64,000 nucleotides of DNA from Haliotis asinina. Taxonomy: Eukaryota; Mollusca; Gastropoda; Lepetellida; Haliotidae. Location of the stretch: the NCBI RefSeq assembly GCF_037392515.1, contig NC_090280.1:74450504-74514503 (forward strand), read 5' to 3'. Position numbers and translations under genes: made by a program. Below the pieces are notes generated by a model. The model was not told the origin of the DNA. It saw only the letters and a program-made list of their open reading frames with translations, and did not search any database. Positions within the stretch are counted from its first letter, which is position 1; every line of letters starts with the position of its first letter. Below, piece after piece: positions 12,201-42,708 of the stretch.

Positions 12201-15026
12201 CACACATCTTTCAGGGAATTTACAGTTAACAGCAAGCGAACCATTGACTCCTTTTGAACAGAAGAATATTCTATCAGACAGGCAATACAGAGGAAGGTTG
12301 GTATAGTTGTCAATACGATCTTGTATGATAGAATCAGTGTTACTGTGAACCCTTTAACGTTAATGTTTCTATTTTAAAAGCAACTATCAAACAAGTATAC
12401 CCGTAGCGGTGGAGTGGCTAACGAAGTTATGTTGTATTCTACAAAGTGTGGACACCGATTGGACGTTCATACATCCATAAACGCAAAGCAAATTGTAGCC
12501 TGCGTTACATATATTTCAGGTTTCACTGTGTATAATTTAAAACCATTGGGATGCGATAAAAATTATATTGCATGCTTATTTCTACGAAGAGCACAAAGCG
12601 ATCTGTTCGGTGTTTATTATTCACACCTTGTGTTACAGATTGGTGGACCAGCTCGGCCAGCCTTTGTCCATCAGCGTCAAGCCGCAAGACCTCAAAACCG
12701 TGCATGTTGATATAAAAGTGAAATCAGATCACGACAGGAACACCAGCATCAAAGTGTTCTTTAATGACAGCCGTAAGAACATTTCAACGTCCTTCCAATG
12801 TCTTATTTTTCATATACGTATTGTTGTCATTGCCTTTGGGAATAACGTACAGGCCACTATTTGCAGTCATTATACTATATGCATAAACATGTTTGAGTCA
12901 AAGCAACATTTGACGGGAACTGGAAATGGTGAGTCATGGGCTTCCCACTTGCCCAATTGGAGTATCCTGAGGGCACTCCAGAAGCTATTCGTCTGCTTCT
13001 CTGTACAAATCCCATCGGGTGAGCATTTAACCAAGGTGGTAAACAGCATTAGCTGGCACACTTTCATGTAATGTTGTTTAAAGCACCTTGAAAACAGACT
13101 AATGCATTTTTTAGACCGTAGGTTCTTGAAAATCAGTGACCCGTAATATAAGTAGTACTTGTCGGGAGTGAGTGGCGTATTGCCTACAAAATAAGGTACA
13201 ACTGTCTTTGAATAGAGCATCAGTGGTTGCACGTGGTGTTGTAAACAACCACCATTAATCAATTCCTCGACACCTTGTCCTTTTTCCACAGATGGTGTAT
13301 GGCATGAGTTACCGGACATTTGTAACAAATCGCAGACACTGCTACTGAGTGAGGACCAGTACATTGTACCTGTAAGTATAGAACATAGCCTGCTCTTGCT
13401 TCCTGCTTTCATACGACCTGTGAAGATCCGGTTTAGAATTGGACGTCATCATCCCATGCTTGAAGTAAGAGACGAGTAACGGGGTCGAGTGGTCATCCTC
13501 GCTGACTTAGTTAGCACTTCTCATCGCATCCCATATGCGTAGATCGATTATCGATGCTCATGCTGTTGATCACTGGCCCAGACCTTGTTTATTGACAGAC
13601 TGTCGCCACATAGTTGGAATACTGAAGAGTACTTTCGTACGTTTTAAACAGTAGCCAGTATAAATGACACTGCGTTAACACTGATGCTGTTGGCTTCCTT
13701 GTGTGTATGTGGAATGCCAATCTCACCAGAAACAAGAAACTTTAATCGTACACGGCTGCCAACGGCAACCATGATATCAGTACGCCGTGTATAGTCACGG
13801 ACTGTGCCCTGACGTACTCCACGAGGAAAATTAACTTTAACCAACTTTTAGCAATATTCCTGCAGTCGCGGTGGATACACGAAATTGGCTTCACACATTG
13901 TACCCATATAGAGGGGAGAGCTGTCAAAGAAGAGTCACATAATAATGATCATTACATAATATGTGTATTGCTTAAAGGTTTTATTGTAACATCACTAAAC
14001 ATCACCAAATATTAGCATAAAATTACACTTTCTTTACATATTATTTTTATATTTCTTTAACGCTGTATGGCCAGTATTGATACATTTTGACTACAACCAC
14101 TTTCACATCTAGACGTATTTGTACAATGGACTATGTTTCTATTTCAGATATGCCCAGATCTATTCGGGAAGATGAATCTGACCCAAACCAGGAACGGTGA
14201 CCTGTCGACAAAACTGGTGATGCTTGCCATGGAGAACAATCTAGTGAACACCGCGCCGTACTTGGAGGACAAGGTGATATACATTCAGGAAGGACAGAAG
14301 CTTCACCATCAGATCAAAGCTAAAGATGCTGAAGGAGATGCATTTGTATTCCATCTGGTAAATACCAACCGCACTCGTGGTACTGTTCACCTACTTGCCA
14401 CAGGCGTCCTTGACTACACACCAAGACCTCACTTCAGTGGTGTTGATCATGTTGAGATAGAGCTGGTGGAAGCCAGTGTAAAAGGGTTCAAGCCGAATTC
14501 TCAGAGCTACACGCTCACCATCATGATCACTGCAGTGGACGGACCACCAGTCCTGTACTACCTTCCTCCTGACAGTGACATGTTCCGGGTTGACAACAAT
14601 GACCACGTGGAGCTCGACATCACAAGACCAATGCCCTACCAGACAGCAGTTGTTGATCTCGGCTACGTTGTCGCAGCATACTGGAACAACGGAGACGATA
14701 TCGGACTGGAACTGACGCCCCTGAACACAACGCTTCATTTCTTTGCCGCCAAACCAGCAGCGTTACCAGATTCGATATGGAGCACCCAGTTGTCTGAAAT
14801 CAGGGAAATTCCGCAGAAGAAGGTCTCCCAAATTACCATGCACTTCCTGTCTGAGTTCAAGGGGACTCTCATGTACAAGATTAAGGTCAAGGGCAAGGCT
14901 GCAGAGGGCGTGCAAGTTGTTCTGTATGCCAGGGTTTCCTACGAGTTCTGTCAGCCTGACACAGTCTGCGTTGATCATGTCAGCGCTAAGAAACTTCCTA
15001 CCCTCCACAACGAACCCCATTCTTAA
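279..15026 (+). CDS. Gene A: 3' part of giant extracellular FN3-like / cadherin-like protein (17 exons, 5' end missing)
   Basis: Exons: 279-456, 804-988, 1120-1817, 1951-3398, 3543-6802, 7401-7691, 8272-8435, 8955-9124, 9273-9412, 9593-9660, 10190-10997, 11214-11284, 11425-11557, 12215-12296, 12639-12772, 13292-13371, 14148-15026. The phases agree at all 16 junctions; the exons sum to 8,789 nt, that is 2 nt of an upstream codon plus 2,929 codons including the TAA. All introns are GT-AG except the first, which uses GC. The protein is secreted or extracellular by inference: many N-glycosylation sites, no membrane segment and no cytoplasmic tail before the stop. The product is an array of beta-sandwich modules, probably for adhesion or matrix binding; I do not know its exact function. 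The first visible exon begins in phase 1, so more exons lie upstream. Introns longer than 300 bases (457-803, 3399-3542 is shorter, 6803-7400, 7692-8271, 8436-8954, 9661-10189, 11558-12214, 12297-12638, 12773-13291, 13372-14147) hold only repeats or AT-rich sequence. Confidence 0.85.
457..462 (+). promoter_or_regulatory. Non-canonical GC splice donor (GCAAGT)
   Basis: Cutting before the GC at 457 leaves AC, which joins the G at 804 to give a Thr codon and restores the module motif ESGI-x-x-Y-x-W-GVGT. The nearest GT (461) would shift the frame. GCAAGT is the usual context of GC-AG introns. Confidence 0.7.
570..625. repeat. Short inverted repeat in gene A intron
   Basis: AATGTTATGGATGTCA (570 onward) is followed about 25 bases later by TGACATCCATAACATT. 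A related half copy (TTGATATCCATAACG) lies near 46,025-46,040, so this is a fragment of a dispersed repeat. Confidence 0.55.
6850..7245. repeat. Possible MITE-like element in gene A intron
   Basis: The ends carry imperfect inverted copies: AAGTCTCGCGAGAC..ACTTCCG at the left and CGGAAGTACGAAGGTCTCGC at the right, around 390 bases of relatively GC-rich sequence inside an otherwise AT-rich intron. No coding sequence was recognised. The boundaries are approximate. Confidence 0.35.
7401..8435 (+). other. Gene A linker exons after the FN3-like array
   Basis: Two exons, 7401-7691 and 8272-8435, connect the FN3-like array to the C-terminal cassettes. The first completes an FN3-like unit that starts with EWTIGTVPSTDD, equivalent to the Y-x-x-x-x-GT strand after ESGI in other modules. 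The second contains two N-glycosylation sequons (NYS, NET). I end the second exon at 8435 rather than at the earlier GT at 8389. Only the longer form is in phase with the next exon at 8955; the shorter form would read into an in-frame TGA. Confidence 0.7.
8539..8838. repeat. Foldback element with ~100-base imperfect arms
   Basis: The arm 8539-8633 (GAAGAGGGACA..GATAGACAATCTCTTCATTGC..GATACACAATATG) is an imperfect inverted copy of 8733-8838 (CATATTGTGTATC..GAAATTGTCTATCC..CCTCTTC). It lies in the gene A intron 8436-8954. The inner part AGATGCGACATTTCGGTCTAGAT also resembles the sequence at 29848-29870 (GGTGCGACGTTTCGATATAGAT), so the two foldbacks belong to one family. Confidence 0.65.
8955..10997 (+). 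other. Gene A C-terminal cassette 1, ending in a cadherin-like domain
   Basis: Exons 8955-9124, 9273-9412, 9593-9660 and 10190-10997 form a cassette. The last exon has a sequence typical of cadherin-like or tandem-95-type domains: TPPVVLTKTVTAVEDKPL, then DVQDKEDD, GYLIYRPDLNYCGKD and a closing QDDPPELTF. It then carries a second beta-rich stretch with a cysteine pair STCQGSACDV near the end. The same order of exons, phases and motifs recurs downstream at 12215-15026, so this is one copy of a duplicated block. The function is not known; cadherin-like repeats usually bind calcium and serve adhesion. Confidence 0.7.
11994..12100 (+). repeat. tRNA-headed SINE fragment (family 1)
   Basis: It has an A-box-like CCTAGTGGTTAAAG and a perfect B-box GGTTCGATTCC, followed by a piece of the common body (TGTATAAAGCACATTGC). 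The tail is degraded. It lies in a gene A intron. Confidence 0.65.
13442..13640 (+). repeat. SINE family 2, diverged copy
   Basis: It reads GACGAGTAACGGGGTCGAGTGGTCA..GTAGATCGATTATCGATGCTCATGCTGTTGATCACTGG (shown in parts). This is the complement of the family seen at 16194-16456. It is diverged and lies in a gene A intron. Confidence 0.6.
13838..13922 (-). repeat. tRNA-headed SINE fragment (family 1, minus strand)
   Basis: TTTTAGCAATATTCCTGCAG, then CTTCACACATTGTACCCATA. This is the complement of the family 1 body (TGGGTACAATGTGTGAAG) and tail. Confidence 0.55.
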
Positions 15027-19450: not shown

Positions 19451-19849
19451 CAAACTAAGCAATGCGTCCCTGAAACGCAGCCGGCCCAACTGGGTCATTT
19501 GTCTCTTAAAGATTTGAACCAAATGAGCCAAGGTCGTTCGATGTGATAATCAGGCTGGGACTTAAAGACTTAGATCCGAGCTAACCGGTTTCTTTATCTC
19601 TTTACGAATAAAAGTCACCTTGAAAACACGTGCTGGCCTCAAGCATGCGGTAAGACCCATGGGTACGAAGTCCCTCATGTACCTATATGAACCCACAATG
19701 AAATACTCCCGAATCTTCCAGACAATTTTCACAAGTAAACATTCTATAAACATGGATGTGATAACTAAAGAAGATGCCCATCTTCAATCAGATTTTGAAT
19801 AATGCTGAAAATACAGCTTCAAGGAAACATTTATTAGCTTCTACGTATG

Positions 19850-20450
19850 TTCAGTGCATCATACACCATGTTACAGTGCATCATACACCATGTTACAGTG
19901 CATCATACACCATGTTACAGTGAATCATACACCATATGTTACAGTGCATCATACACCATGTTACAGTGCATCATACACCATGTTACAGTGCATCATACAC
20001 CATGTTACAGTGCATCATACATCATATGTTACAGTGCATCATACTCCATGTTACAGTGCATCATACACCATATGTTACAGTGCATCATACGCCATGTTAC
20101 AGTGCGTCATACACCATATGTTTCAGTGCATCATACGCCATGCTACAGTGCATCATACACCATGTTACAGTGAATCATACACCATATGTTACAGTGCATC
20201 ATACACCATATGTTTCAGTGCATCATACACCATGTTACAGTGCATCATACACCATATGTTTCAGTGCATCATACGCCATGCTACAGTGCATCATACACCA
20301 TGTTACAGTGCATCATACACCATATGTTACAGTGCATCATACACCATATGTTTCAGTGCATCATACACCATGTTACAGTGCATCATACACCATATGTTAC
20401 AGTGCATCATACACCATATGTTACAGTGCATCATACACCATATGTTACCG
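19850..20450. repeat. 600-base minisatellite, 22/24-base units
   Basis: About 26 tandem copies of CATCATACACCATGTTACAGTG (shown as CATCATACACCATG + TTACAGTG). Two unit lengths are mixed: 22 bases, and 24 bases with an extra AT (CCATATGTTACAG). Variants include GTTTCAG and GCTACAG. Higher-order repetition is visible: the series plain / ATATG / ATATGTTTC recurs. It lies 1 kb upstream of gene B. Long stop-free frames across it come from the repeat and are not genes. Confidence 0.95.
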
Positions 20451-21448
20451 GGGATGCATGAAATCAGCGATTTCGTGTAATCCCTAAAATAGTCAGTTAT
20501 TTCCTGAAATCACTGTAACCCTCAGTTATTTCACATATTCCCTAAAATTTCATAAAATTACTGAAATCTTTGGATCAGGGATTTCATGAAGCCCATGCCA
20601 GTCTTTATTGAAATACAGAACACCAAATTTAAAATGCACCTACAACAGAGTATATGTTGATAAGATTCCAGGCAAGACAGACTGTTGTGACATCGGCTAT
20701 TTGACTCCAGTCCCACTCAGAAACATTTACATCGATTTTTATTGGTTAGGACCCCAGTCTAGAAACCCTGACCACAACAATTCAGGTCGGAAATCACAGC
20801 AGTCCGGAGAGACATATTTTCCTATTGTTTTTATTAATTCAAATCAGTAGGTACAAATATAAACAATACTTTAATCAGAAGAATTAGTACAGAAACTGGC
20901 AAAAGTTCATACGGGTATGTGCAACAGTGACAACCGTTTTCTGTTAAATTGTAATATTTCTTTACCTTTATTGGCAATAAACTTTTCTGTGTTGTAAAAA
21001 TGTCTTTTACTAATAATGCAAAAAATGCTTTTATGAATAATGTACCCAGTGATAACCTTTTTAAATACATGATGTATGGATGTACTGTTTACCGGTAAGA
21101 CGTATATGATTCGATAGGGCGATAATGTGACATTCCACCACTTAAGACTTACGTTTGTCATGGTAACAGTTTCTGATGATTTACCTTCAATATACACTTT
21201 CAGTTTCAACCAGAATGTTTTCACACATTCGTATTGCCAATAAACATGTATCAAATGTATATACTATACTATAACACAAATGTATACAGCATTGCGCTAG
21301 TCTTCTATACCTCCCTTTAATAGCTTATCTTTTGATGGGTGCGTGTCTAACTCAGTTTGGTTGGGCTGTACAATCCTTAACCGGTAAACAGAACCAGATT
21401 GATGTCAACAGAAAAACCACAGCCACAACACATACAGGGAGGAACATC

Positions 21449-24400
21449 ATGAAGATTGTACCGGTATGGATTGTATTCTGTGTAGTTTCTGTTAGCACTA
21501 CCAATGGCGGGCGTCGATTTAAACACCAAAGTCGAAGCAGCGACGTTGACGACGATGCTGAATGGGAACTGAACTCTAGAGGGCTCGTGTCACACATCGT
21601 CAATCTCGATGTCCTGCCTGACGTCAGTGTATGTATTCTTTCATGTATCATATCTAGTGTGTGAGTGAGTGAGTAAATGTTGAACGTCACATCGTCAATA
21701 GCTCATTCATATTGCATAAAGAAACGGTTCACGGAGTTGATGATTCTTTGTGTGATTAGGAGCATTTTATGTTTCACAAATTTCTATGCCGTAAGATATA
21801 CACTACTTTTAATTGATCATATATTAATTGGGAGCCTAGTGGTTAAAGTGTTCGCTCGTCACACAGAAGACCTGGGTTCGATTCCTCATATGGTCACAAT
21901 GTGTGAAGCCCATTTCTGGAGTTCTCCGTCATGATGTTGCGGACATACTGCTAAAGGCGGCGTAAAACTAAATTCATTCACCCACATGTTCATGTCATCG
22001 GTTTTCATGAATCAACGCATATGGCTAACAATGTTTCCAGTTTTGAAGCCATGAAACAGTACACCAATCTGACAATTTAAAAGTATTTTCTCACTGTTCA
22101 AAGGTTGCCGAAAACAGCAAAGGGGAGATAATCGTGAATCTTCGAGACACTTCGGTTGCTTACAGATGGCAGAAAGGATGGTATGTGATAAGTACCAACG
22201 TCAGACAAAGACATGGATTGGACGTCAAACACGTGGCCATTGTGAGGAAAATACAACGTGTGAATGTCGTCAGTCATACAAAGGTCAAGGTTGAGGGCAT
22301 CGACATCAGGTAACCAACCCATAAATGTCATAAAGCAAACCAATGTGTTTTAATGTTATTTCAGTTGATGTTCATTTAGCGATTTTTGTCTATCAATTTT
22401 TCAGCGCCTTGGATTTACTTCAGGAAGCACAGGTGTTTCTCAGATATCCCCACATAACCAACAAACATAGTCATCGCCAGAAGAGATATGTGTCCAATCT
22501 TCTCTCTGACGTCTTGGACAAAATCAGCTTCCATGCCATTGATGCTGACGAGTCCATCAATTTCAATTTTGACCCAAAGACTGGTAAGGCAATCCATGCG
22601 TACAATGTATATAAGGAGCAAGGCAAAAAGGAGGTCAAGGTTGAAAAAGTCGTCAAAGGTAAAACCAGTACCATTCCACGAGATGTTGACTTTCGACTGA
22701 CCTGCAAGGATTGTTTCGAAGTTCGACATATTGGGCATACAATGTAAGTGTTATTAAGCAATAGATCATTATATCAATATTCAATAATCACATATGCTGA
22801 TACAATATAGGCATATTGAGGACTGTGTATTATCCATCTTACAATGGACATATATAAGTGCAGAAGTACAGAATGCATTTATTCAGAAAATATAGAAATA
22901 GCACACCACCTACGGATATTTCACTGTTTTAAAATTATTTATCTATTGTTACAGGGACCTCAACGTAGAGAGACGAAACACGACAGCTGTTGTTAAAATG
23001 TTCCTTATGCAGGTTGTATGCGATTATTTTTAGATAATTTTAAATCGCTGTTCAGGAATTCTGAAATATGTGTCATTCGTAAATGAATACTTAAGACCTA
23101 AAGCTAACGTTTTGCAATAATACTTTCTCAGGGGTTAAACAATCATGTAAAGATGTTTATAGTAATTCTCAAAAATGTAACAGAGTGACGTCAATACCAT
23201 CCACAACGTTGATTTCGACGTGGACTTCAGAAAAGCTCTTGGCGTTAAGGAAAGACTTATATTGGACAAGACACCTGCAACAGTTTTACGGACTATTCCA
23301 GTTGCAAAAGTAAACGAGAAACTACCACCCATACAACTTGTCATCTCATATGACAGAACTGTGTATTTGGAAGTCAACGCAACATCTGATGGGCCAATCA
23401 ACTTTGATGGCAAATTCCATGTGCAAGGGAATTATACTGCGAGTATGAAAACTGTAGTTTCATTACCGTATACCATTTTTCTGCACCCTTGCAAAAAGAT
23501 ATTTCAAGACAAATATTCACGAATATTTGAAGCAGGCAATTGCTATAGCTTTGCACTTGATTACCGAACATATGTCATATTTGTGATTACACTTTCCAAA
23601 GTGCAGATTCTAGTACTTGTGCTTGAATCCATCCGGGATTCGAACCCTCATCCTCAGTCGCTGAACCGTGGCTGAGCGGGTTATACGGCAGACTTTGTGT
23701 GCTGGCGATTAGGTGCCTGACTCTGAGGGTGCGGGTTCGAATCCCGGATGGGTCTCAACCGAAAAAGTACTAGAATTAGTACTTAACTGAGAAAGTGTAA
23801 TCCCCAATATGACATATGTCACATTTGACCACTTTCTGAATGGCATTGTGCAATCATGGATTACCGAAGTCGAATTGTGCCATTACAATCCTATAAATTT
23901 TAAAAGTTTCCATTTTGATATCAGAGAAATGTAATTATCACCCCATAACGCACCTTGTTATAATTCAGACTAGGTTTTCATTTTCTACCGAAAACCTTGT
24001 AATATCATGATTGAACAAATCATGTTTTCCTTTCAGCCTCGACAGAAACATCCGGACATATTCCTAGGACAGACTTGACCACAGCCGACTGGTCATCTTC
24101 AGACAAATCATTCAATAGCCATTCTGTAACAAGATATAACTTTTCCATGGCTCTTTATCAAGAGGTGAGCACATAAGCTGTTACGACTATGACATATGTA
24201 ATAATATTGGAGTCAATATGATAACATGAAGCCCGAATGTAAGTGCCAGTATCAACTCCATATCGTTCTAAACTTACAATAATAGGGCAGCAGAAGGTAG
24301 TCACTGTTAATGTTGGTGCCAACATGCTGGACACCAGTGATAACATGAACCCCGACCGTATGTGTCAGTAGCAACTCTATCTCTACAGTAACAGGGGGGC

Positions 24401-27400
24401 AGAAGGTTCATGGTTCGATCCACGGCTACGTCAAACGACTTTAAAATATGTTTTAGCTTTCACCCTCAATGACCAGTGTCATTAAGCGGATTAAGCATGG
24501 GTTTGTGTCCGAGCAGTGTAGCCATGGTATGTGCGGCGTTATATCTCCGTCGGCTGGCAATGTAACAGGAGCAAATGCCCAATGGAGTTTGCACCAACAG
24601 TCACACATAACAGAGCACATGTACGTCGCTACATAAATGACAGAATATTGAACGCGAACCATTTCGTCATTCTTTAACTTGCAATAATGAGAATAGAATA
24701 AATTATCTCTCATGTTTCACTTTATATAACGTGTCTTGTCTTATCTGTCAGGTTACTCTACAAACTTCAGTTCAGTGGTCTCAGCATGACGTGTCCCTAG
24801 TGTTCACGCCACCGGAAATTGCAAGTTTCAGGCCTGTTCTGTACGCTCGCACTACCGAGGATGAGTACAGTCGATGCGAAAAGGCTTCCCTTATAGTTGA
24901 TGGGATGTTTACCTACGACAAGTCGGATTTTGTGGCTAAAGCTTTCCACAAAACCGTATGGTAATTTAATTAACTTGATTCATTAACTTTGTCATATCAT
25001 GTCACGACATGATCCCTAATGTTAGCCATTGCCAGACGTAATGTTTGTACGATAGAACATCTAATAATTCAATTGTTGCTGTTTACAGGAATTAATAAAT
25101 CCAGACAGCTGGACATCATCTGGTAATATGCTTATTGTACTGATCTGACGTCTTATATATTTTCTTATATTTCAGGGATCTGGGATTAGTAGACACCAAC
25201 GTCATCCATAAGTCTTTGATAGAAGACACACTGTCTACTATTTGCTCTGCGAACTGTGCTGCTCCAGTCGCCGATGTCCATGGGAAGACAATGGAAGCCG
25301 TCTGTGGTGCAGTGGGACAAGCGATCGTCAGAGGAGATGGCAATTTTAATAAGTAAGATCACGTTCTATTTCGCCATTTTACCATAAGCTTACAGTATGG
25401 TCTTGGCAGATGTCTGATATGTTTTTTGTGGCTCTTTACATTTCGTTGCGGGCTTTCAAATTCAACTTCAACGTTGTAGGTTGGAGTATCAGTGTGACCT
25501 ATTGTAACTTGGGGTAACTTGTTTCCTGGGGACCCCCTCCACGGTCTTGTGGTAGAGCGGGAGGTCTAGGGTCCGAAGTACGGCCGCGTCATGCCAAAAT
25601 ATGTTCCAATATGGAACTTGTTGGCTCCTGCAGCTCGGCATTAATAGGTAAAACAAAGTCTGATCTCTGTGAACTAGCACTATAAATCCGGCTTACGTCT
25701 AGGTAGTACATGCAGTCACAAATACACACGCATGCACGTCGTCATGCGAGCGACATATTCTTAAGTAAGACGTTAAACCCTTTACCTCACCTATTTCCTG
25801 GGAACAGTCCAGCAACTGTACATTATATCAAAGTTTTTTAACGGAATGCGATTGATAGAATACATCAATTAAATTTCGATAACTTGAGTATCAATGAGCG
25901 CAGGTAGTCGTGGAATTTCTGGCAATTAAAAAGGCAATACTTCTCAGATTAACCTTGATTGGCGGAGACTTCATCCTGTTTCGGTCTGAAGAAAAAGACA
26001 GTGCAAGCTGGTGCGGAACGTCAAAACGACCATGTCGTACATGTGTGTGGAGTGATCACGGAGACAGTGAGGCCGATGTCTGCGCCGACAGATTAATGAC
26101 GTCTACAGCAGCAGCATCGTTGACTACCCTTGGACTGTTTGCCGCACAGGAATGGCCAAACCGTAAGAATTCGTATTAGAAACACTTGCGTCATCGTTTA
26201 TTGTTAGGTGCAAAGGTGTCGGTGTAAGGTTTTCAGCAAGAAGTGAAAAAAAAAACGGAAACGCCAATGATGGACTGAACGCCAATGATATTCAATACAT
26301 TCGAACTTGAAGATACGAAGGCCCCTTCAAATCGATGGGATGGCGAAAGGAGGTTTATAACAATGGTCACCAGTGTTTTATAAGTACTGGCATAAGTACT
26401 TACAAGTACCAAAGAGTGTCTTGTGAGTGAGCATGACTTTAAGCCGCTTTTAGCAATATTCCAGCAACATCACGGTGTTGACACCTGAAATGGACTTCAC
26501 ACATTGTAGCCATGTAGGGAATCGGACCGACATGTTGTGCCTACATGAGAATAAAGATTCTTAATCAGTTGTTCATTTAGACAATAGCTACCTGAAGTAC
26601 ACCATGTGAACGTATATTTCTGCTTATATACACACATACAGGAAAGGGGTATCACATATTTGGGAAAGTGGAGAACTAGAATGCATAAACAATAACTTGT
26701 GCATTTTATCACAAGGTAAAACTACAATCTGCATGCAATTCAGGAAAACTGGTGGTGCTTGAAGCATGGGATGAACCAACGTCAGATCACCCTCAAGGAA
26801 ATCATGGCGCTTCTTCACTTCACTATTCCGGAAGGGCTCTCCAGGTGGCGCTGACAACTGAACACCCTAACAAAACTACATCACTGCAGTTGGAATCGTC
26901 AGCCCCGTTGTTGAAGAGATTGGCAGAACTTGGTGCTTGCGCTGGGTTCCCATTCTTTGATGTCACTTCCGGTCATGTTGAGTTCTGCGTCCATGATGGT
27001 TCGTCACTCCAAACAAGGTCAAAGCGATCGCCAATCGGACCAACTGGAGACAGTGTAGACGAAGGGTCGTTTCTTAGAACAATGAATGAAACTGGTAGGA
27101 AACTGGAAGCTTATTAAAACTAAGAGAACGTTCAAAAGAAATAATTGTCAGTTGGGAAGCGCATGAGACAGGGCATGTTACTCTTGTGTCTGCTGTTGGA
27201 ACATAAACCTCTCAGACGTTGTTTCAGAGCTACTTTGAACATTGTTTCATTTATATCTCAGCGTATTCTAGAAGAAAAGCCTTTCACCAGTTGACAAAAA
27301 ATAAGTAGCAATGCGAAGGCGATTCTCAGAGTCGAACCAACGTTTATAGGTTATAGTAAACCGTTTGGCAGATTTCCACTGGGAATTATGGGTCCCTCTC

Positions 27401-30400
27401 CCAAGATTCTCATTAGTACCTGAAAGATATGATGATATTATGTACATCTGTATTACACACTGGACTTGTTACGCTACATGTATGCATTTCGTTACCACAT
27501 TCATAATAACACTGATGTCAAGAAAGCAACTTTAGATAAAAATTACAGGGTCTTTAATCTCCACATTTAAAGATGTATGCATCACAGAAGCCATTCGGTT
27601 TGGATTCACAAACTCAAATTTCGCAGGTGAAATGCCGTTTCTTAAACATAACCCAGTTGACGTATGTTGGGGTCACAATGGGGATCAATTGTTTTCAGTG
27701 CTTAAGTCGGCTTCTGCTGCTTGCAAGATTGGTCGTGTCAAACCAAGTGATGTTCTTGGCCATGTCATCAACCCCCCATTGATGGAACATGACTTACAAT
27801 ACAGGTATGTCTGTATCTCTGTGTGCCGGTCAGTTGCGTTTCTAGTAATCGTCGGGATGATTGGATAGCCCAGTGGTTAGGCGTTCGCTCCTCACGCCCA
27901 TGTCCCGGGTCGATTCACCGCATGGGTACAATGTGTGAAACCCGTTTTTGGTGTTCCCCGCGGTGATATTGCTTGAATGTTGCTGAAAGCGACGTAAAAC
28001 TAAACTCACTCACTCTATTATTCATCGATGCCATATTAACTTTGATATCTTTTGAGATAGACGTGAATTCTTTGCAGTATGACTTACTACACAATTATGA
28101 AATTAAATCATTTCTTCAGATTAATTCAGTATCCTTATGAAGACGTTATCTTCAAACCCGAGGGATCACCATCAGCCACATGCTATCAGTCGACCAGGAG
28201 ATGCAAGAGCACGTGCAAGTGGTCTGATAGTACGGAACACTGGGATTGGTGTCAGACGAGGGTCATGACCCCTAGAATGGCAATACGCCTACGGCGATTG
28301 GCTGCCATTGTTAAACACCAGTATCCAGGTATTTGTGTTTCATATTAGTACAAGATGAGGTAAATGTTTTGGGGCTTTTTTACTGAGGTCTTTTCTGTCT
28401 TTCTTCTTTTTGTTTTGTGGTGTTTTATGCATTCTTCTTGGGTTGTTTCTTACCCGTAAAGGGAAAGGGTAGAATAGGCCTTCAGCAACCCATGTTTGCC
28501 TTAAAAGGCGACTGTGCTTGTCGTAAGAGGCGACTAACGGGGTCGGGTGGTCCCACCAAAGCCTAGACAGTAGCTGTTGTTTGGTTAAGTCTGTTCGGCC
28601 GTCTCTCGTTTAATTGGACGGTCATAGGTCGATCATAGGTTACCTGACGCAACCCCCAATGTAGGAGTGTAACCAATAATCCTGAAATTAGATTTACTTA
28701 AACTTGAACGGAAACACAGATGTATGACGTTATGGCGTTGAGGGACATCACAAATGGAAGGAACACACACTAATGTACAGACATGTATTTTGTATGAACC
28801 ACGCACTGACTACTCTACTGCCCCAGTACGTATATATACACGTCAGCATTATTTATGTTGTTTTCTCACAACAGGTGCAAAACTAAGTGTGGGAAAGCCA
28901 GCCCTAGCAGCTCACAGAGGATCGTCTGACGATATCCTGCTTGAAATGAATGGGAGGTAAAGGTGCTGCAATTCAAAGAACACGCATATAATATAAACTG
29001 TCACATATACATGAAGTACAGTTCAAATTTAATCTTGAAGTATGTCAATCAGATATGTAACATTGTAAGTGAGAAAACCCTTAGCAAAACCATTGATACC
29101 GTAACCAATGATACGAGTTTTCCTTAACTATGTGCCAACAACTAATCAGTGGAGATCAAATAAAGATCAGATTTAGGTACAAAAGTGGCATTTTAACCGG
29201 TAATTGGAACATTAGTTCTAAAAGTTTGTCTTTACATCAGGGGCATTTCTAGCTAGAGTGCAGTGAATGTAAGGTGATTGGTTCAAAAACAACAATCAAT
29301 ATAGATTTTTGTTACCCCACGGTCACAGTGGATATACTATACCAACAGAAAACTCCAGATTACTCGTCAGTCAGGCACAACACCAACCACAGCCCAACTT
29401 CACTCTTTGGCGACATGTGCAGGCTTTGATTACATAGACAGCTCCAAGTCCTCATACATTGACGTCTATGTCAAGCTCCAAGACGGCTACAAGGCAACAA
29501 TTGTCCCTTTCCCGGTAACTACAGTGTTGGCAGTTGGGGTTCAGGATGAAGATTATGCATATCCCCCAGCACTGATTGGCGAGTCCAGAAAGTCTTTACT
29601 GTTTGATGGATTTAATAAGGACATAGCACTCTCGCAACACTTCAAAATATCAGACTTCAAACACTCAGAGAGAAGGTTCTTCAGACTCGATGCATCCCTT
29701 GTTGACTGTCTGGAGCTGGTGGTAAATGATCTTGGACAAGATGTCAGAGTTGTTCCAAATACTGCTTACAGGTGTGTATATATTTACGGGTACATTTTTG
29801 AAGGAAAACCAAGTTCTATTGATAGTCAACTTCTTTATTGCAATGGGTGCGACGTTTCGATATAGATACTAACACCGTTATCAAGCATAGAGTGATATAT
29901 AGAGTTGTTACATTTAGAATATGTACATAGCTTCATAATGATAAAAAACCTTGATCCCAGTTCATTGTGGGGTTGAATCACCCCGTAGACAAGCAGCTCC
30001 CTTTGTGATAAGTATCCCATATGTCCCAGCAGTCAGCCATCAGATAAGACGACTTCTTCAGCAGCAAGTAGGTATGGGCGTTCTGTTCGAGAAAGGCAAG
30101 TCCATCCAAACCTCCTCCAAGTCACAGGCAAACCCTCATCAACAACTAAAGAAGACCCCACAGGAATAGTCTACCAGATAAATTGCCAATGTTGAGAGTC
30201 TTACATATGGGAAACGTCCCGCCCTCCCCCACTACGAATTAAAGAATACAAAACTTCAGTCCCAAAAATAAAAGACTCCAAATCCGCCATAGCCGATTAC
30301 GAAACTTCTACAAGCCATAAAAATTCAACGCTTCAACCCCTCCATGAACAGGGATCAAGTTTATTTTATCTCATCACCACCTAATAAAACGTGACCAGTA

Positions 30401-33400
30401 ATTTACCCATACCTCGTCCACTGGCTTGTATGCTCCCTTTTGTGTGTTGTAATCAGAATCAATTAATATGTACATCAACCTACTTTCTTCAACTATCAAC
30501 TTATCTATTGCATAAACTGATTCAGCATATTTTTAAATTACTATTACTTTGTACATCACCCTACTCCCCTCGAATCACTAATCAGCAATCCAGAATATAT
30601 CAAACTCGTTATTTGTATATACACACTGGCAGCTATGTACATAACATATTCTAAATGTTACAACTGTTTGTATCACTTGCTTGGTACCTATACAAAAATG
30701 TCGCACCCCTTGCAGTAAAAGGAGTTGACTATTCACAAAACTTGGTTTTCCTTCATCTATATAAAATGTCTTTCAAAGAAGATGCATCATTGTAGAATTT
30801 GCAAAAGATTTAATAATCAACTTTGATTGGTAATCTACTTACGTATAATGAGCAGTAGTTTGCCTTTTTTATAGTAACTATTATATTTAGCACTTGGTAG
30901 AACATTATAACGCGGTATGGAGAGATATGTGGAATATGGTACTTAATATGATATGAAGATATCCTTTCCCCGTTGTTTTACATTACGTGTCTTTCCACAA
31001 ATTTATCTCCTCGTTGTAACACGTTGTAACAGGTCGCACTCTATCAACCTGCGAGACATGGACCATAGACATTCCCAGGAAAAGTTGAGGTATCAAGCAG
31101 GACAAGCAATGCATGTCAAGCCCATCGCAGGCAAATCAACAGAGGACCTTGTAAACATTGGACAATCCTTTCTGAGAAGCTGTTCTCCAACGCTTCGACT
31201 GCAAGCACGTGGCCTTGGCATAGGTTGTCATGGTGATTCTTTATACATTGACATTCGACCGATGACATCTGGTGATGTTCGAGACATAGCCGATGTGTGG
31301 AATGCAGGAAATGAGGCTGTCTTCGACAAGTTGCACAGTTCCATGGACGAACTGAGAAAAGGTAAATAACATTTGTGGAATATGTCAGCAAATGCCTTTG
31401 GTGACAATCGGAAAATCAACTGCATATATATACCTGTGTGTGTGTGTTGTAGGCGGGCCAGCAATTAATCCTCTGAACCAGAAGAGAACATGCAAAACAC
31501 CACGGCTTGGTGAACAATATGCACACTACTCCTTCAACACGCGTTCACTTGGGTACGTTTCATAACTTAATTGCTAAAAGGACACTTTTATCTGTTATGA
31601 TTTTTAAAAATTATGGTACTTGTATTTTCCTGAGGTTTCCTTTTTCATATGTTTCAACTTGATAAGTGTCAAACTAAATATTTCAAGAATTCATTGTGTG
31701 GAATGGTATATTCATATACGATAGAGAATGTGTGTGTGTGAATATTGTTTTACTCCGCTCTAGCATTATTCCTGGATATCACAACTATCGACAACAGGAA
31801 TGTGTGTATGTGAATATTGTTTTACTCCGCTCTAGCATTATTCCTGGATATCACAACTATCGACAACAGGAATGGGCTTTCGGATATTACAGCAATGTGG
31901 GAAATCTAACCCCGGCCTTCACTGTGTGAGAATGCTTTGTTCACTTCCTACCGCATCATCGTGTCTGAGCCGTCGTGTCTGAGCAATCCCCACACATTTA
32001 TATCCAAATGTGAGTTATCATAACTTAGTATGTTCAGGTTACTGTGTACTCTTCATACATTCATTAGGTTCTGTTTCCACGACCGAGAGAGTCAGTTCTG
32101 CCATGACACCAGGGAATACAGACATCATCAAGCCGACAAACTCCGAGATGACTTGATGAAAGTGGCAGGCACTACGATGACCAGGAATGCGATAGAGTCG
32201 GATCTACAAAAGTGTGTTCTGGACAATTGTGGCGGTTGTCCCGGCAAGGGTAGGACACATTTATAAGTTGTTACTCTATCCCCAAGGTTCCTAAGAAGCA
32301 CCTTCACATCAAGTGCACAATTTTGTTGTTGCCCTATTTAAACGCAATTTCAAATGTTCTTCTTCTAGGGAGAGAGTTGCCGTTATATTCTGATAATTTA
32401 AAGATGTTTCAAAACATTTCAATTTGTTTTGCACATGTATAATTCTTAGGAACAATATGGAATAAAAAGGTGAGTGGATGTGTGGGAATGGTTCACACTT
32501 TCCTGAGGCTTGCCAAGAACCAGTTCAAAGACGTAGTTGACAAGGCTGCCTTCTTCAACATCGACAACGCCGAATCAAGCGTTCACTCCCTGGCGTGTCA
32601 TGACGGCCATGTATGTTTGGAGAATACACAACTGTATTCCCTAATAAGTGAGTGATGTATAAATACGTCATCGTCGTCTGTCAATTAAAAAATATCAAAG
32701 ACGTCTGTTTTCGTGTCTTAAACCTTCGGAAGAAAATCGGGACACTGAAATGGCAACTTTTGAAATAATTGTGTTCCTCATGCTAAAATATTCGCCATTA
32801 ATATCTGACGATCTGTACAGGATACTTGCCGCTTTTTTATCTGCATTATCTTTGAGACAGTAGTCTATTCTGCGTGATGTGTATTTCATGAAATTCGTTG
32901 CAAATCCGTACGAAACAGTGCACCATAATTACCTGTGTGCTTCCAGTGCCTCTGATGAATTCCAAGTACCAACCTAACCCTCAGCAGAGCCGAGAGGAGT
33001 TGTTATACAGTGGAGATGACAACCCCTTGCCCCTGATATCTCTAGTGGAACAAGAGTTTGCAAAACAAGTGTCTGGTGTTGTGAAAGTGTACATAGAGTC
33101 GGAGGCAGACATGGCCAGTATGAGGGACGTGTTGAAGGTATGAAAGAAATGTACTTCGCTTCCGTTTTGGACTGTTATCAGGGATAAGAAATTAATGCGC
33201 TTGAATCCGATTTAATAAAATGGCTGACATCTGATGAGCTTTGAATTAGTCATAAAGTGCCCTGAATCATTATGTTATCTTGATGTTGACACTGTTGTAC
33301 TATGTCATATACAAGACGTCTTCACGATACTTTCACTAACTTAGATTGTGGTACTCTCTTGCTGACAGTTCAGATACCTTTGACTCTTCGAAAATATGCT

Positions 33401-33819
33401 ATTTTATTTCATTTGACACTACCTGGCATTGTACAATCACGTAGCTTCGGAAACGGGCACACTACGTATCAATACCAATAGTGGACGCTCTGAGAAAAGC
33501 TAGATTCTCTAAAGGAGCGCTGTTGCAGATTGTTATTTTGTTCCAGATCCTGATGATCTACAACCGGGACGTGACAGAGGTGGAGTTCCATCTGACGGAC
33601 ACGGTGGACCAGGACAACGTAATGTCCGCCCTGCAGAGGAAGCTGGAGTACTGGTCAGGGACGGCCTGTCCTCGGTGGAGTCGGTTTGCTGTTGCTGCGT
33701 ACAGCGTCCACGACATCCCCCATCACAGGAGGAGGAGGAGTCTTGAAAGGAGCAGAAGCAGGAACAAGGTGAAGAAAGCCATGAAGGAGTGGGAGCTGGA
33801 CTGGATCAAGAAGATGTGA
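21449..33819 (+). CDS. Gene B: secreted protein with two Hedgehog-N-like domains and a Peptidase_M15_3-like domain (complete, 20 exons, ~1,454 aa)
   Basis: Exons: 21449-21628, 22104-22309, 22405-22743, 22955-23012, 23184-23442, 24037-24164, 24752-24960, 25176-25352, 25948-26162, 26744-27094, 27549-27804, 28120-28328, 28875-28956, 29349-29771, 31033-31361, 31453-31552, 32068-32249, 32450-32647, 32947-33137, 33547-33819. All junctions are GT-AG and in phase; the total is 4,365 nt. The chosen ATG at 21449 opens a signal peptide (MKIVPVWIVFCVVSVSTTNG). Order: unrecognised N-terminal half (about residues 20-500), Hedgehog-like domain 1 (about 519-680), Hedgehog-like domain 2 (about 765-940), M15_3-like domain (about 985-1108), and a cysteine-containing C-terminal part ending in a basic stretch. 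Three furin-type sites are present. No Hint/Hog domain follows. It is probably an extracellular binding or signalling protein rather than an enzyme, because the metal ligands are mostly replaced. Confidence 0.85.
21655..21705 (-). repeat. 3' tail fragment of the non-LTR retrotransposon family
   Basis: GTGAGTGAGTGAGTAAATGT followed by GAACGTCACATCGTCAATAG matches the terminal sequence of the element at 38677 (GTGAGTGAGTTAATATTTAA..CGTCACATCGGCAATA), in the same orientation. Confidence 0.55.
21829..21985 (+). repeat. tRNA-headed SINE (family 1)
   Basis: GGGAGCCTAGTGGTTAAAGT, B-box GGTTCGATTCC, body CACAATGTGTGAAGCCCATT, and tail GGCGGCGTAAAACTAAATTC. It lies in the first intron of gene B. Confidence 0.8.
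23568..23819. repeat. Foldback with ~90-base arms around a tRNA-like core
   Basis: The left arm (23568-23656, ACATATGTCATAT..GATTACACTTTCC..TAGTACTTGTGCTTG..CCGGGATTCGAACCCTCAT) is an inverted copy of the right arm (23722-23819, GGTTCGAATCCCGGATGGG..AAGTACTAGAA..GAAAGTGTAAT..ATATGACATATGT). The core 23667-23755 has an A-box TGGCTGAGCGGG and a perfect B-box GGTTCGAATCC, with the spacing of a long-variable-arm (Leu/Ser) tRNA, but no matching acceptor stem. It lies in gene B intron 23443-24036 and is best read as a mobile foldback derived from a tRNA, not a working tRNA gene. Confidence 0.75.
25535..25795 (+). repeat. Third type of tRNA-derived SINE
   Basis: CACGGTCTTGTGGTAGAGCGGGAGGTCT (given in part: GTCTTGTGGTAGAGCGGGAG) resembles a tRNA A-box region. 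It is followed by CGTCATGCC and a body ending TTAAGTAAGACGTTAAACCC with a CCTCACC end. It lies in gene B intron 25353-25947. Confidence 0.55.
26421..26550 (-). repeat. tRNA-headed SINE (family 1, minus strand)
   Basis: GTGAGTGAGCATGACTTTAA, TTTTAGCAATATTCCAGCAA, CTTCACACATTGTAGCCATG, then GGGAATCGGACC (complement of the B-box region). It lies in gene B intron 26163-26743. Confidence 0.7.
27858..28016 (+). repeat. tRNA-headed SINE (family 1), near full length
   Basis: ATAGCCCAGTGGTTAGGCGT, GGGTCGATTC, ATGGGTACAATGTGTGAAAC, CCGCGGTGATATTGCTTGAA, ending GTAAAACTAAACTCACTCAC. It lies in gene B intron 27805-28119. Confidence 0.8.
28443..28600 (+). repeat. SINE family 2, 5' part
   Basis: AGGGTAGAATAGGCCTTCAG, AACCCATGTTTGCCTTAAAA, GCTTGTCGTAAGAGGCGACT, AACGGGGTCGGGTGGT. 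This is the complement of the far end of the 16194 copy. It lies in gene B intron 28329-28874. Confidence 0.7.
29600..31361 (+). other. Gene B Peptidase_M15_3-like domain, degenerate active site
   Basis: The end of exon 29349-29771 joined to exon 31033-31361. Motif order fits the M15 DD-carboxypeptidase / endolysin family: HFKISDFKHSE (family: HF-x-x-E-F), DASLVDCLELVVNDLGQDV, VVPNTAYRSHSIN (family: SGYRSPxHN), HSQEKLRYQAGQAMHV (family: SxHxxGxAxD), LGIGCHGDSLYIDIRP (family: GIGxYxxxFVHVDxR). The three metal-binding positions read Arg, His and Tyr instead of His, Asp and His, so catalysis is unlikely. The exon join TAYR|SHSIN is in phase (2 to 1) and skips the repeat element in the intron. 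Confidence 0.75.
29797..30758. mobile_element. ~960-base foldback/MITE-like element in gene B intron
   Basis: The left end 29797-29858 (GAAGGAAAACCAAGTTCTAT, GATAGTCAACTTCTTTATTG, GGGTGCGACG) is an inverted copy of the right end 30700-30758 (GTCGCACCCCTTGCAGTAAA, AGGAGTTGACTATTCACAAA, CTTGGTTTTCCTTC). The interior is AT-rich and includes an open stretch 29951-30167 preceded by an AG. That stretch is not needed for gene B, because exons 29349-29771 and 31033-31361 join in phase without it and rebuild the M15 motif across the join. Confidence 0.7.
31453..33819 (+). other. Gene B C-terminal region
   Basis: Exons 31453-31552, 32068-32249, 32450-32647, 32947-33137 and 33547-33819 add about 310 residues. 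Cysteines recur (TCKTP, FCFH, FCHD, KCVLDNCGGCPG, CHDGHVC), so the region is probably disulfide-bonded. It ends with HHRRRRSLERSRSRNKVKK, which contains furin-like RRRR-S and would bind anionic partners such as heparan sulfate. Two segments, VVKVYIESEAD and EVEFHLTDTVD, resemble each other and the last strand of the Hedgehog-like domains (HVEFCV), so a fourth, very degenerate repeat is possible but not shown. Confidence 0.65.
31728..31872. repeat. Tandem duplication, 72-base unit x2
   Basis: The block GTGAATATTGTTTTACTCCG..CTATCGACAACAGGAATG occurs twice with a 72-base period and is nearly identical, so it is recent. It lies in gene B intron 31553-32067. Confidence 0.9.
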
Positions 33820-39215: not shown

Positions 39216-39665
39216 TCAAAATTCAACCAAAAAATCAATTTCTTTAAAAAAACCTATAATTAAATGAGAATTAACGCTGGTAAAAAGATCCTTCATTGTT
39301 TTAACTGTACAATACTTATCCCTTATGATGGAGAATTCAACACAGTCAAGCAGAATATGCTTGATCGTGACTCTCTCATCACAAGGGATACAAAACGGAG
39401 GATCCTCACCTTTTAACAGGTGCACATGAGTATATCTAGTATGGCCAATACGACATCGTCGTAAAATAACCTCTTCAAATCTGGACTGACAACCCAAGTA
39501 GGTGTAACCAATGTAGGGTTTTATTTCATGTAATTTATTTATACGTACTTGGGTGTCCCACTTCTTCTGCATCAGACTACGGATGTAGGTTCTAATGCTC
39601 GCTTTGTAATCAGAGTATGGAATAAGAAGTGGTGTCACAGATTTGTTGAGTGCTGCCTTGACCAT
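39216..39665 (-). pseudogene. Retrotransposon ORF2 C-terminal zinc-motif part
   Basis: The fragment contains KKWDTQVRINKLHEIKP, RCRIGHTRYTHVHLLKGEDP and PFCIPCDERVTIKHILLDC. The C-x-x-C, H and C arrangement is the usual tail of RNase H-bearing non-LTR elements. It overlaps the end of the RNase H fragment in a different frame, which shows another frameshift. Confidence 0.8.
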
Positions 39666-39990
39666 CGTGATCGGCCATCGTGTTACCGGAAATGCCTACA
39701 TGGCTTGGTAACCAACAGAAGACGATATCGTATTGGTCAGTAGCAGGATTATTATACAATTCAATAATATCAATTAAAAGTGGATGTTTACATGATAAAT
39801 TTGTAATCGCCTGAAGACAAGAAAGAAAATCTGAATAGATTATATATTGTTTACGTTTAGGGTGTCTTTGAATATATTTAAGAGCTGTTAACATGGCGTT
39901 AGCTTCAACTGTGAAAATAGAACTGTTATCTGGTAATCTAGAAGATATTGTTCTGGATCCAATGACAGTGGCACAAGCCACTGCGCCACC
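39610..39990 (-). pseudogene. Retrotransposon RNase H domain
   Basis: 39981-39610 contains FTVEANAMLTALKYI, YIIYSDFLSCLQAI and WLPSHVGISGNTMAD. These are the Glu, Asp and His/Asp blocks of RNase H; the Ser after Asp is replaced (YSD-F instead of YSDS). Upstream is a part of unknown function. Confidence 0.85.
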
Positions 39991-40649
39991 ATCCTTGGAC
40001 CCATCTGTAAATTTAGTTGATTACATTCTTGTTTATATTGTAATTCATTAGTTTCTTATTTTTTTAAAATGTGGTCAATGTTAGGTCTACTTGGGGCCTG
40101 GCCAACTGCCAAGGAGGAGAAGAAAGAAGACGGGAGGGAGCTATGTTTTTCCAGCTCAATGCCGGCAGCAGAAAGAAAGGGTTTAATTGTATGTCCTTTA
40201 TACGGCGCTGCTCGGGAGATGGTTCATCAGCCTCAACATAGAGGCTGTCAACAGGTGACGTTCTAAAAGACCCAAGACAAAGTCTTAGACCTTGATGATG
40301 GACAGAATCTAACAATTTTAAGTTGCTTTTGTGGGCTCCACCATGCACGATGGAGCCATAATCAAGTTTAGAACGAACGAGTGATCGATAGAGATGGAGA
40401 AGGGTAGCTTCATTTAGAATTTGAAACCGCTTTCAACAAGTCAAGTGCTTTCAGGCATTTAGTTTTAAGGGATTTAATATGCGGTGAAAACGTTAAGTGT
40501 GAATTAAAGATTAGACCCAAGAACTTAGCTTCCTTAACAACTTTAATTGGCGTGCCATCTAGAGATAGTTCAGGGTCCTTATATGGTTTATATTTACGTA
40601 AAAAATGTATGCAGTTAGTTTTCGATTTAGAAAATTTAAAGCCGTTTTC

Positions 40650-41924: not shown

Positions 41925-42119
41925 TTCATCAGAAAAGCACTTAATAGCATCAGGAACGTCAATAAAACGTTCAGGTTTAAGTTTTTCATCACACAGTGTT
42001 TCATATAAAGTCCAATTACCCTTTTTAAAATTCCGCCTTGATGATGGAGGAACATCAAATGGAGTTACAGATTTTAGTATAGTAGGAAAATGGTCACTTC
42101 CACAGAGATCATCGTGGAC

Positions 42120-42660: not shown

Positions 42661-42708
42661 TAGTCCTCAATCCTCTGCAGTTCCACTGTACAATATTACT
42701 GGAATAAA

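Follow-up and report, generated by a model that had tools for sequence, protein, structure and literature searches.

The question raised by this locus is what kind of protein would carry the signalling domain of Hedgehog twice and the Hog domain not at all. In a window of 64,000 nucleotides from Haliotis asinina (the whole stretch of DNA analyzed, positions 74,450,504 to 74,514,503 of contig NC_090280.1), a first-pass annotation had noticed two tandem homologues of the Hedgehog N domain in a non-Hedgehog gene, and they had been interpreted as a separate lineage of secreted proteins with duplicated domains and no Hog. Hedgehog itself, in contrast, has one N domain, which is followed by Hog/Hint. 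The duplication was confirmed by the present analysis. A probable third domain, similar to Peptidase_M15_3, had been missed, as had a four-cysteine insert shared by both Hedgehog-N domains, the loss of the zinc sites, the convertase motifs, and the spread of the family.

The gene and its family

The interval originally noticed, 25176-29771, comprises only exons 8-14 of a gene at 21449..33819 on the forward strand. Its 20 exons are located at 21449-21628, 22104-22309, 22405-22743, 22955-23012, 23184-23442, 24037-24164, 24752-24960, 25176-25352, 25948-26162, 26744-27094, 27699-27804, 28120-28328, 28875-28956, 29349-29771, 31033-31361, 31453-31552, 32068-32249, 32450-32647, 32947-33137, and 33547-33819. 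The hand-made 20-exon model contains a single open frame, with GT at 19/19 and AG at 19/19 introns, and its product of 1404 aa is identical, letter for letter, to a deposited "uncharacterized protein [Haliotis asinina]" (P0001). In addition, five transcript-sized contigs of 4.3-4.85 kb each contain an open frame of 1396-1421 aa. The splicing is supported because these contigs are too short for such introns and because P0001 matches exactly. The assembled product matched PF01085 with 77 bits (E 1.8e-21) for the draft model and 77.2 bits for P0001.

Profile comparisons and alignments showed the following order: an N-terminal region, Hedgehog-N domain 1, Hedgehog-N domain 2, an M15_3-like domain (by profile evidence only), and a cysteine-rich C-terminal region, with no Hog. 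This architecture is shared by a family of 15 proteins, ten of which have an assigned source, i.e., gastropods, bivalves, and a cephalopod. The search for relatives thus yielded abalones, bivalves (clams), and an argonaut octopus, and also the five transcript-sized contigs. Apart from the hand-made start of the model, nothing favors an assembly or gene-model artefact that joined unrelated exons, and its probability is practically negligible in view of the identical deposited protein, the whole open frame on transcript-sized contigs, and the order common to 15 proteins, those with an assigned source coming from three classes. Contamination was dropped as an explanation, since introns are present and copies reside in an animal genome. 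A pseudogene was dropped as well, since the frame is open and dN/dS is 0.22.

The abalone genome contains two tandem copies, one old paralogue, and a small duplicate contig. Between the tandem paralogues dN/dS was 0.216 overall and ranged from 0.133 to 0.245 by region; they are under purifying selection, and rapid evolution is not apparent. Elsewhere, the same genome has a normal hedgehog gene (104 and 165 bits with PF01085); this gene and the common architecture support the proposed separate lineage. When PF01085 was run against the whole genome, the two exons of this canonical gene were the only matches listed. Absent from the list were the present gene and its paralogues, whose individual exons score low. 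In the present gene, a single domain 1 exon reached 23.8 bits and passed the cut-off of 22.1, whereas a single domain 2 exon failed with 15.1 bits. The family sequences had already been deposited; the search database labels them PF01085, and the UniRef name of the Dreissena member begins "Hedgehog N-terminal signalli". The family is also a warning that PF01085 gene counts in molluscs include non-Hedgehog proteins. Six LOC identifiers of the family are named in no paper's main text (as distinct from supplements), and the earlier remark that no protein with this layout had been described is consistent with the literature matches listed. Scanning of bacterial and archaeal contigs with domain 1 yielded 18 pattern matches, of which tblastn confirmed 0.

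The two Hedgehog-N domains

By profile comparison, residues 502-676 (25300..27000, forward strand, exons 8-10) and 735-884 (27779..29481, forward strand, exons 11-14) are Hedgehog-N (PF01085) domains. The motifs quoted originally for domain 1 (ADRLMT, KLVVLEAWDE, SLHYSGRALQV, AGFPFFD, GHVEFCV) are found in the given order on the forward strand in exons 9-10, and those quoted for the second run (IFKPEG, RVMTPRM, YPGAKLSV, MNGRKLQIT, CAGFDYID, YIDVYV) in exons 12-14. With PF01085 (cut-off 22.1), a piece with domain 1 alone scored 54 bits (E 2.1e-14) and a piece with domain 2 alone 31.8 bits (E 1.4e-7), the latter piece including extra sequence because exon 11 was taken from 27549 instead of 27699. 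PF01085 was matched in 15/15 family members at E<=1; bit scores refer to P0001, P0003, P0005, and P0006. In profile searches against the PDB (E<=10), each domain retrieved 25 distinct sequences, all of them Hedgehog, with best E values of 9.7e-11 for domain 1 and 5e-11 for domain 2. Of the 175 positions of domain 1, the best match spanned 61-133 (the next one 58-135), and of the 151 positions of domain 2, it spanned 48-149. Alignment alone supports the initial 40-odd to 50-odd residues of each domain and, in domain 1, also the final 40. The likeness to Hedgehog at the profile level thus includes ADRLM, EAWDE, and SLHYxGRA in domain 1 and extends to the C-terminal strand in domain 2, and in the alignment only, a CGxxG start lies opposite the IGASG of abalone Hedgehog.

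The two domains matched one another in a profile-profile comparison with an E value of 6e-23, compared to 0.0021 for the best of 200 column shuffles. Both contain an insert with four cysteines that are invariant in 15/15 members: C541, C548, C551, and C564 in domain 1 (26012..26083, forward strand) and C764, C771, C775, and C787 in domain 2 (28181..28252, forward strand). Abalone Hedgehog has a gap in the alignment where domain 1 carries this insert. The intron positions match between domains 1 and 2 and differ from Hedgehog, which has a phase 0 intron after ADRMMSE, whereas here a phase 1 intron precedes KLVV. The shared invariant insert and the matching introns therefore show, at the level of sequence and gene structure, that the two Hedgehog-N domains arose by a duplication within the gene.

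Among the 15 members, the searches reported no Hint/Hog family (E<=1), and the GCF motif is also absent, in line with the original statement. In Hedgehog, the palmitate-bearing cysteine directly follows the signal peptide, whereas Hedgehog-N domain 1 begins only at about residue 500 and has no acylation cysteine. Because both the N-terminal acylated cysteine and the cholesterol anchor made by Hog would be missing, the behavior of a membrane-tethered Hedgehog morphogen is not expected. The zinc site was compared with the reference triad H, D, H and the catalytic E (mouse H141, D148, H183, and E177). The triad is complete in 0/15 members in domain 1 and in 0/15 in domain 2, and an E at the E177 place was found in 0/15 for both domains. 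Parts of PMC6027127 describe a missing zinc motif also for Drosophila Hedgehog, and this and the presence of two Hedgehog-N domains would be compatible with a true Hedgehog-type ligand acting through Patched. Such a ligand is nevertheless very unlikely, given a sequence with neither acylation cysteine nor Hog and a genome with a normal hedgehog gene.

Hedgehog-N domains outside Hedgehog have precedents. According to parts of PMC6027127, Hog-less Hedgehog-N proteins have been reported from cnidarians, sponges, and choanoflagellates, and it is debated whether the signal domain originated from DD-peptidases of bacterial type. Hedgling and the Hog-less Hedge proteins (Nematostella Nv 200640, sponge) are similar to the present protein in being large, extracellular, and Hog-less, but have a single, N-terminal Hedgehog-N domain, as far as parts of PMC2362128 and PMC6027127 describe them. 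The bacterial Hedgehog/DD-peptidase proteins (bacHh) likewise have a Hedgehog-N-type domain outside a Hedgehog gene, but are described in parts of PMC6027127 with all Zn and Ca residues, whereas the Zn triad is broken here. Lophohog, another Hedgehog-related family of molluscs and annelids, has Hog with a different N-terminus in the relevant parts of PMC9695228, and the present protein is the reverse.

A probable M15_3-like third domain

Residues 920-1060 (29587..31270, forward strand, exons 14-15) look like a degenerate Peptidase_M15_3 domain, and this assignment is probable on profile evidence. The region aligned with 8 phage M15_3-type proteins in hhalign with an E value of 1.2e-10 over 111 columns, i.e., nearly its whole length (best of 200 shuffles 0.005); the first phage set (A11) was chosen by similarity to the paralogue C8, which makes its match partly circular. 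A second set (A12) of 5 phage proteins, chosen without reference to the abalone, was matched with an E value of 3.2e-7, and this match persisted when the C8 row was removed from the abalone profile. The A12 proteins are 5 records among the 20 matches listed of 744 and were retrieved through their similarity to a phage protein that is itself one of the three matches of the C8 exon. Their deposited names are similar to peptidase, serine/threonine protein kinase, Peptidase_M15_3 domain-containing, peptidase M15, and endolysin. The 744 records with a match to such a domain (E<=1e-4) represent about 1.5% of 50,697 phage records.

Phages were also searched with tblastn (E<=10). With the C8 exon as query, 3 records were matched, with E values between 8e-3 and 3e-2, and Pfam assigned each of them to M15_3. 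The P0001 slice matched 4 records, the best of which (E 2e-2) is one of the places hit by the C8 exon, and the P0006 slice matched 8 records with E values of 1 to 6, including one at that same place. Among the latter, 2 are named "similar to peptidase", 2 "endolysin" (one phage twice), and 3 are hypothetical. Scans of Pfam, NCBIfam, and PHROGs families yielded no match for the third domain, and PF08291 (Peptidase_M15_3) was matched neither in any of the 15 members nor in the C8 exon. Nothing was recognized as a relative in PDB searches. Designed repeat proteins (Cake) appeared there with whole-sequence E values as low as 2e-13, although none of the individual stretches passed; the matching stretches of about 17-34 residues were taken as noise, together with weak unrelated chains.

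Unlike in Peptidase_M15_3, the zinc ligands are lost: the places of HxxGxAxD and HxD are occupied by F/Y, E/Y/H, and Y in 15/15 members. Thus, the zinc triad is incomplete across all three domains in every member. Neither Hedgehog-N domain matched the third domain, and therefore no recent triplication is claimed. With the phage M15_3 sets, the E values were 0.014, 0.012, and 0.068 for domain 1 and 0.46 and 0.024 for domain 2, none of them beyond the best control shuffle of the third domain (0.005). The link between the Hedgehog-N domains and the third domain would thus lie at the superfamily level, as taken from the literature. With this qualification, a single bilaterian polypeptide, conserved across abalones, bivalves, and an argonaut, would combine a pair of Hedgehog-N domains with an M15_3-like domain, and the layout would unite the signal domain of Hedgehog with its presumed enzyme relatives in the same molecule.

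The match to phage M15_3 peptidases raises the idea of an immune function, i.e., recognition of bacterial cell walls by domains that descend from peptidoglycan peptidases and have lost catalysis. The filter or surface feeding of bivalves and gastropods would fit. However, all three folds are degenerate, the copies in the abalone genome are few, and the tandem copies lack signs of rapid evolution, and we consider this function unlikely.

Processing and possible function

The N-terminal 20 residues (21449..21508, forward strand) are hydrophobic and were read by eye as a probable signal peptide, which upholds the suggested secretion as probable. Three convertase-type motifs were found on the forward strand: RQKR at residues 153-156 (22475..22486), RSKR at residues 682-685 between the two Hedgehog-N domains (27016..27027), and RRRR at residues 1375-1378 (33727..33738). 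RxKR/RxRR is present at these places in 14/15, 11/15, and 14/15 members, respectively; four members lack the motif between the Hedgehog-N domains, and all three motifs are absent from the Argonauta member. The signal peptide and the convertase sites are motif readings from the sequence. The cysteine-rich C-terminal region (residues 1093-1374, 31458..33726, forward strand) has the lowest regional dN/dS, 0.133, and its profile had 0 matches in the PDB.

Taken together, we think it probable that the protein is a secreted, convertase-cleaved, non-enzymatic binding protein and not a lipid-anchored morphogen. The precursor would enter the secretory pathway, and furin-type convertases would cut it at up to three RxK/RR motifs. 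Outside the cell it may act as a calcium-dependent binding protein, with the Hedgehog/DD-peptidase folds as pseudo-enzyme binding surfaces that conserved disulfides would hold together. Candidate partners are a Hedgehog-pathway protein, the matrix, or microbial wall material. With enzyme site, lipid anchors, and Hog all gone, such a protein would be a natural test case for the question of which Hedgehog surface binding depends on.

The large size, the richness in cysteines, and the absence of a complete enzyme site would also suit a structural or adhesive protein of the extracellular matrix, whether of shell, egg coat, mucus, or tissue, with the Hedgehog folds as mere building blocks. In parts of PMC2362128, Buerglin 2008 argued that the Nematostella Hedge protein, which lacks Hog and continues with VWA, cadherin, and EGF domains, has a role in adhesion. 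However, none of these three domains was found in the 15 members (E<=1), nor was any other recognized adhesion domain, and a matrix role is possible but less likely than binding.

The calcium site was compared at the six acids that form it in Hedgehog, where they coordinate Ca and contribute to the binding of partners. In domain 1, five of them are kept in 15, 13, 14, 12, and 14 of the 15 members and the sixth in 1-2/15, depending on the alignment; domain 2 has kept one of six. The five acids of domain 1 would allow a modulator of Hedgehog signalling, in which calcium-loaded domain 1 competes for Ihog/Cdo-type or Hhip-type partners. This role is rather doubtful, however, given that the sixth acid is nearly always missing, that the zinc groove has changed, and that the calcium site is adjoined by the four-cysteine insert. 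Equally tentative is the proposal of a second, Hog-independent molluscan Hedgehog-N lineage in which a Hedgehog signalling domain lies next to a recognizable domain of the DD-peptidase family, and in which a convertase frees a Hedgehog-N fragment that carries no lipid, binds calcium, and acts on partners in the Hedgehog pathway; if true, it would give direct access to the step from peptidase fold to signal. Both modulation of Hedgehog signalling and recognition of bacterial walls are special cases of the binding protein proposed here.

Two Hedgehog-N domains and their origin

The window gene (21449-33819, plus strand) was built by hand from 20 exons, and GT-AG borders are present at all 19 introns. 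Its product turned out to be identical, letter for letter, to a deposited 'uncharacterized protein [Haliotis asinina]', P0001. This supports the exon joining and fixed the end of exon 1 at 21628 and the start of exon 11 at 27699. The Hedgehog-N profile PF01085 matched the first-draft product with 77 bits (E 1.8e-21). When single-domain pieces were analyzed, domain 1 (residues 502-676) reached 54 bits and domain 2 (residues 735-884) 31.8 bits, each above the cut-off of 22.1 bits, which bears out the claim of the first-pass annotation that two such domains lie in tandem.

A PDB search with the single sequence of domain 1 (E<=10) yielded 28 matches, 25 to Hedgehog (best E 4e-9) and three to beta-glucosidases (E 0.39-0.61). 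Profiles of six relatives retrieved 25 distinct sequences per domain, all of them Hedgehog, with best E values of 9.7e-11 (domain 1) and 5e-11 (domain 2). The matched stretches fall inside positions 58-135 of 175 in domain 1 and extend over positions 48-149 of 151 in domain 2; what precedes these stretches, like the final part of domain 1, is assigned by alignment to the abalone's own Hedgehog. The profiles of the two domains also matched one another (E 8e-16 with six rows, 6e-23 with fifteen rows), compared with 0.0021 for the best of 200 column shuffles. In view of these values, the tandem arrangement is far beyond chance. The architecture is almost certainly that of two Hedgehog-N domains without Hog.

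By their sequences, the two domains are products of a duplication inside the gene. Each contains an insert with four cysteines immediately before the ADRLM/TRVM helix, and these residues (C541, C548, C551 and C564 in domain 1; C764, C771, C775 and C787 in domain 2) are invariant in all 15 family proteins. The exon ends correspond as well: the main exon of each domain is preceded by a phase-2 intron (exons 8/9 and 11/12), and KLVV (9/10) and AKLSV (12/13) by a phase-1 intron. In contrast, the abalone Hedgehog lacks the insert, and the true hedgehog gene has, from the exon ends as read, a phase-0 intron after ADRMMSE that is found in neither domain. This canonical gene lies at C10:52288409-52310116, and its exons encode an intact zinc motif (SLHYEGRAVDI, HIHCSV).

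Among known relatives, a Hog-less protein with one Hedgehog-N domain is reported from Nematostella and suspected in a sponge (excerpt of PMC2362128), and Hedgling is described for cnidarians, sponges and choanoflagellates (excerpt of PMC6027127). Lophohog of molluscs and annelids represents the reverse case, a Hog with another N-terminus (excerpt of PMC9695228). In agreement with the first-pass annotation, which knew of no protein of this layout, none was described in the titles and abstract openings among the literature matches listed. The find does not lie in the sequences themselves, because family proteins are already deposited with an automatic Hedgehog-domain label. It consists of the architecture and how it is conserved, together with the third domain and the states of the sites.

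A probable third domain and the states of the sites

The layout proposed at first, two Hedgehog-N domains, held, but it overlooked a probable third, M15_3-like domain that is supported by a profile match to phage proteins. Judged by these comparisons, residues 920-1060 are very probably a degenerate relative of Peptidase_M15_3. The region had no match in Pfam, NCBIfam, PHROGs and PDB searches. The homologous exon of a diverged paralogue on C8 was compared by tblastn with 50,697 phage records (E<=10) and matched three (E 8e-3, 1e-2 and 3e-2), all of which are M15_3 by Pfam (85.9, 58.1 and 82.2 bits). With the same records, the window gene's own piece gave four weak matches, the best at one of those three places, and the piece of another family member, P0006, gave eight, one of them at that place.

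A six-row profile of the third domain matched the three phage proteins with E 1.4e-10, and five M15_3-type phage proteins, chosen by similarity to one phage protein and not to abalone, were matched with E 3.2e-7. With 15 rows and all eight phage proteins, E was 1.2e-10 over 111 columns. The controls yielded 0.058 (reversed profile), 0.005 (best of 200 shuffles), 0.069 and 0.25 (N- and C-terminal regions) and 0.068 and 0.024 (Hedgehog-N domains). No comparison that paired a Hedgehog-N domain with either the phage proteins or the third domain of the abalone reached significance. Hedgehog-N and M15 are assigned to one superfamily, Hh/DD-peptidase (excerpt of PMC6027127). One Vibrio phage protein (L035, 142-489), which bears the name serine/threonine protein kinase, aligns with M15_3-type peptidases and is probably misnamed.

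The sites were read from alignments. In domain 1, the position of mouse H141 is a histidine in 5 of the 15 proteins, D148 is kept in one and H183 in none; in domain 2, none of the three equivalents is kept in any protein. Glutamate is absent from the E177 position of both domains (0/15). The three ligand places of the third domain are occupied by F/Y, E/Y/H and Y throughout (15/15). Of the six calcium-holding acids of Hedgehog, five are kept in domain 1 in 15, 13, 14, 12 and 14 of 15 proteins and the sixth in one or two, according to which alignment is used; domain 2 keeps one, in all 15. Given these states, the domains are very unlikely to act as enzymes, and domain 1 could plausibly bind calcium.

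By eye, every member except the H. rubra model has a hydrophobic N-terminus. Furin-type RxK/RR motifs end at residues 156, 685 and 1378 of P0001 and occur at these places in 14, 11 and 14 of 15 proteins, with none of the three in the Argonauta protein. These features suggest a secreted precursor that would be cut into pieces, which would part the two Hedgehog-N domains in most species. Partners might be bound via calcium-dependent and pseudo-active-site surfaces; beyond its general form, we regard this binding-protein mechanism as tentative and somewhat doubtful. Hedgehog-type lipid anchoring would not be expected, because neither Hedgehog domain has an N-terminal cysteine behind a signal peptide, and Hog is missing.

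Spread and evolution of the family

Three protein searches yielded 15 members of 1360-1421 aa; the first two were limited to scoring the 7,999 and 8,000 candidates richest in shared words, and the third listed 7,820 candidates with no cap reported. As shared five-residue words and similar length were required, absence outside the groups found is not proven. Five members are from Haliotis (two each from H. asinina and H. rufescens, one from H. rubra), four from the bivalves Ruditapes philippinarum, Mactra antiquata, Mya arenaria and Dreissena polymorpha, and one from the cephalopod Argonauta hians, so that every one of the ten members of named origin is a mollusc. The H. rubra model as deposited (P0004, LOC124278269) begins about 45 residues later than the related proteins do and has lost the putative signal peptide region. 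The remaining five are on contigs of 4.3-4.85 kb without source organism. These contigs hold the whole open frame and thus stem from spliced RNA, unless those genes have no introns; we read their source tag 'lgn' as reassembly of public reads.

In an unrooted tree, the bivalve and the five no-organism proteins grouped together (support 100). The two tandem types of Haliotis parted from each other earlier than the species of that genus did (supports 92 and 100). The pairing of the C8 paralogue with Argonauta had a support of only 55. Over 1377 codons, dN/dS between the tandem copies was 0.216 overall and 0.133-0.245 by region, with synonymous change almost saturated in the linker and in Hedgehog-N 2.

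Genomic setting

The window is located at C1:74450504-74514503 of the 1.143-Gb assembly, and the tandem partner of the gene about 123 kb downstream (74607041-74617728). The first Hedgehog-N domain of the old, diverged third paralogue (loci L015-L018; C8:63065732-63077526, minus strand) contains SLHYEGRAAAV. A second copy of the 3' half of this paralogue lies on C59 (63649-70783), a 71-kb contig that looks like an alternative haplotype. A further weak match to P0006 at C5:28023713-28023901 (plus strand; 30% identity, E 0.009) is perhaps due to chance.

Long exons with repeated fn3-like units flank the gene on both sides (1086-6849 and 57082-61012, plus strand), and by eye the two genes are related. 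In the Pfam scan, fn3 passed the cut-off for the entire 3508-6849 protein as well as at 1086-1829, stayed under it at 58172-59503, and had no match at 59513-61012. An upstream gene (10103-11005 and 14091-15026, plus strand) contains bacterial-Ig/cadherin-like repeats, with Big_9 over the cut-off in both parts and Cadherin_4 in one. Open frames at 39216-43907 (minus strand) resemble, by eye, fragments of a non-LTR retrotransposon, with stretches like a zinc knuckle, an endonuclease and a reverse transcriptase; a Pfam scan of a 249-aa piece gave no match. At 19809-20480 (plus strand), a short-unit tandem repeat noticed by eye, with HHTPCYSASYT-type repeats in translation, keeps three reading frames open over long stretches. 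A short open frame at 47441-47836 (plus strand) carries an EGF_2 domain over the cut-off (28.3 bits).
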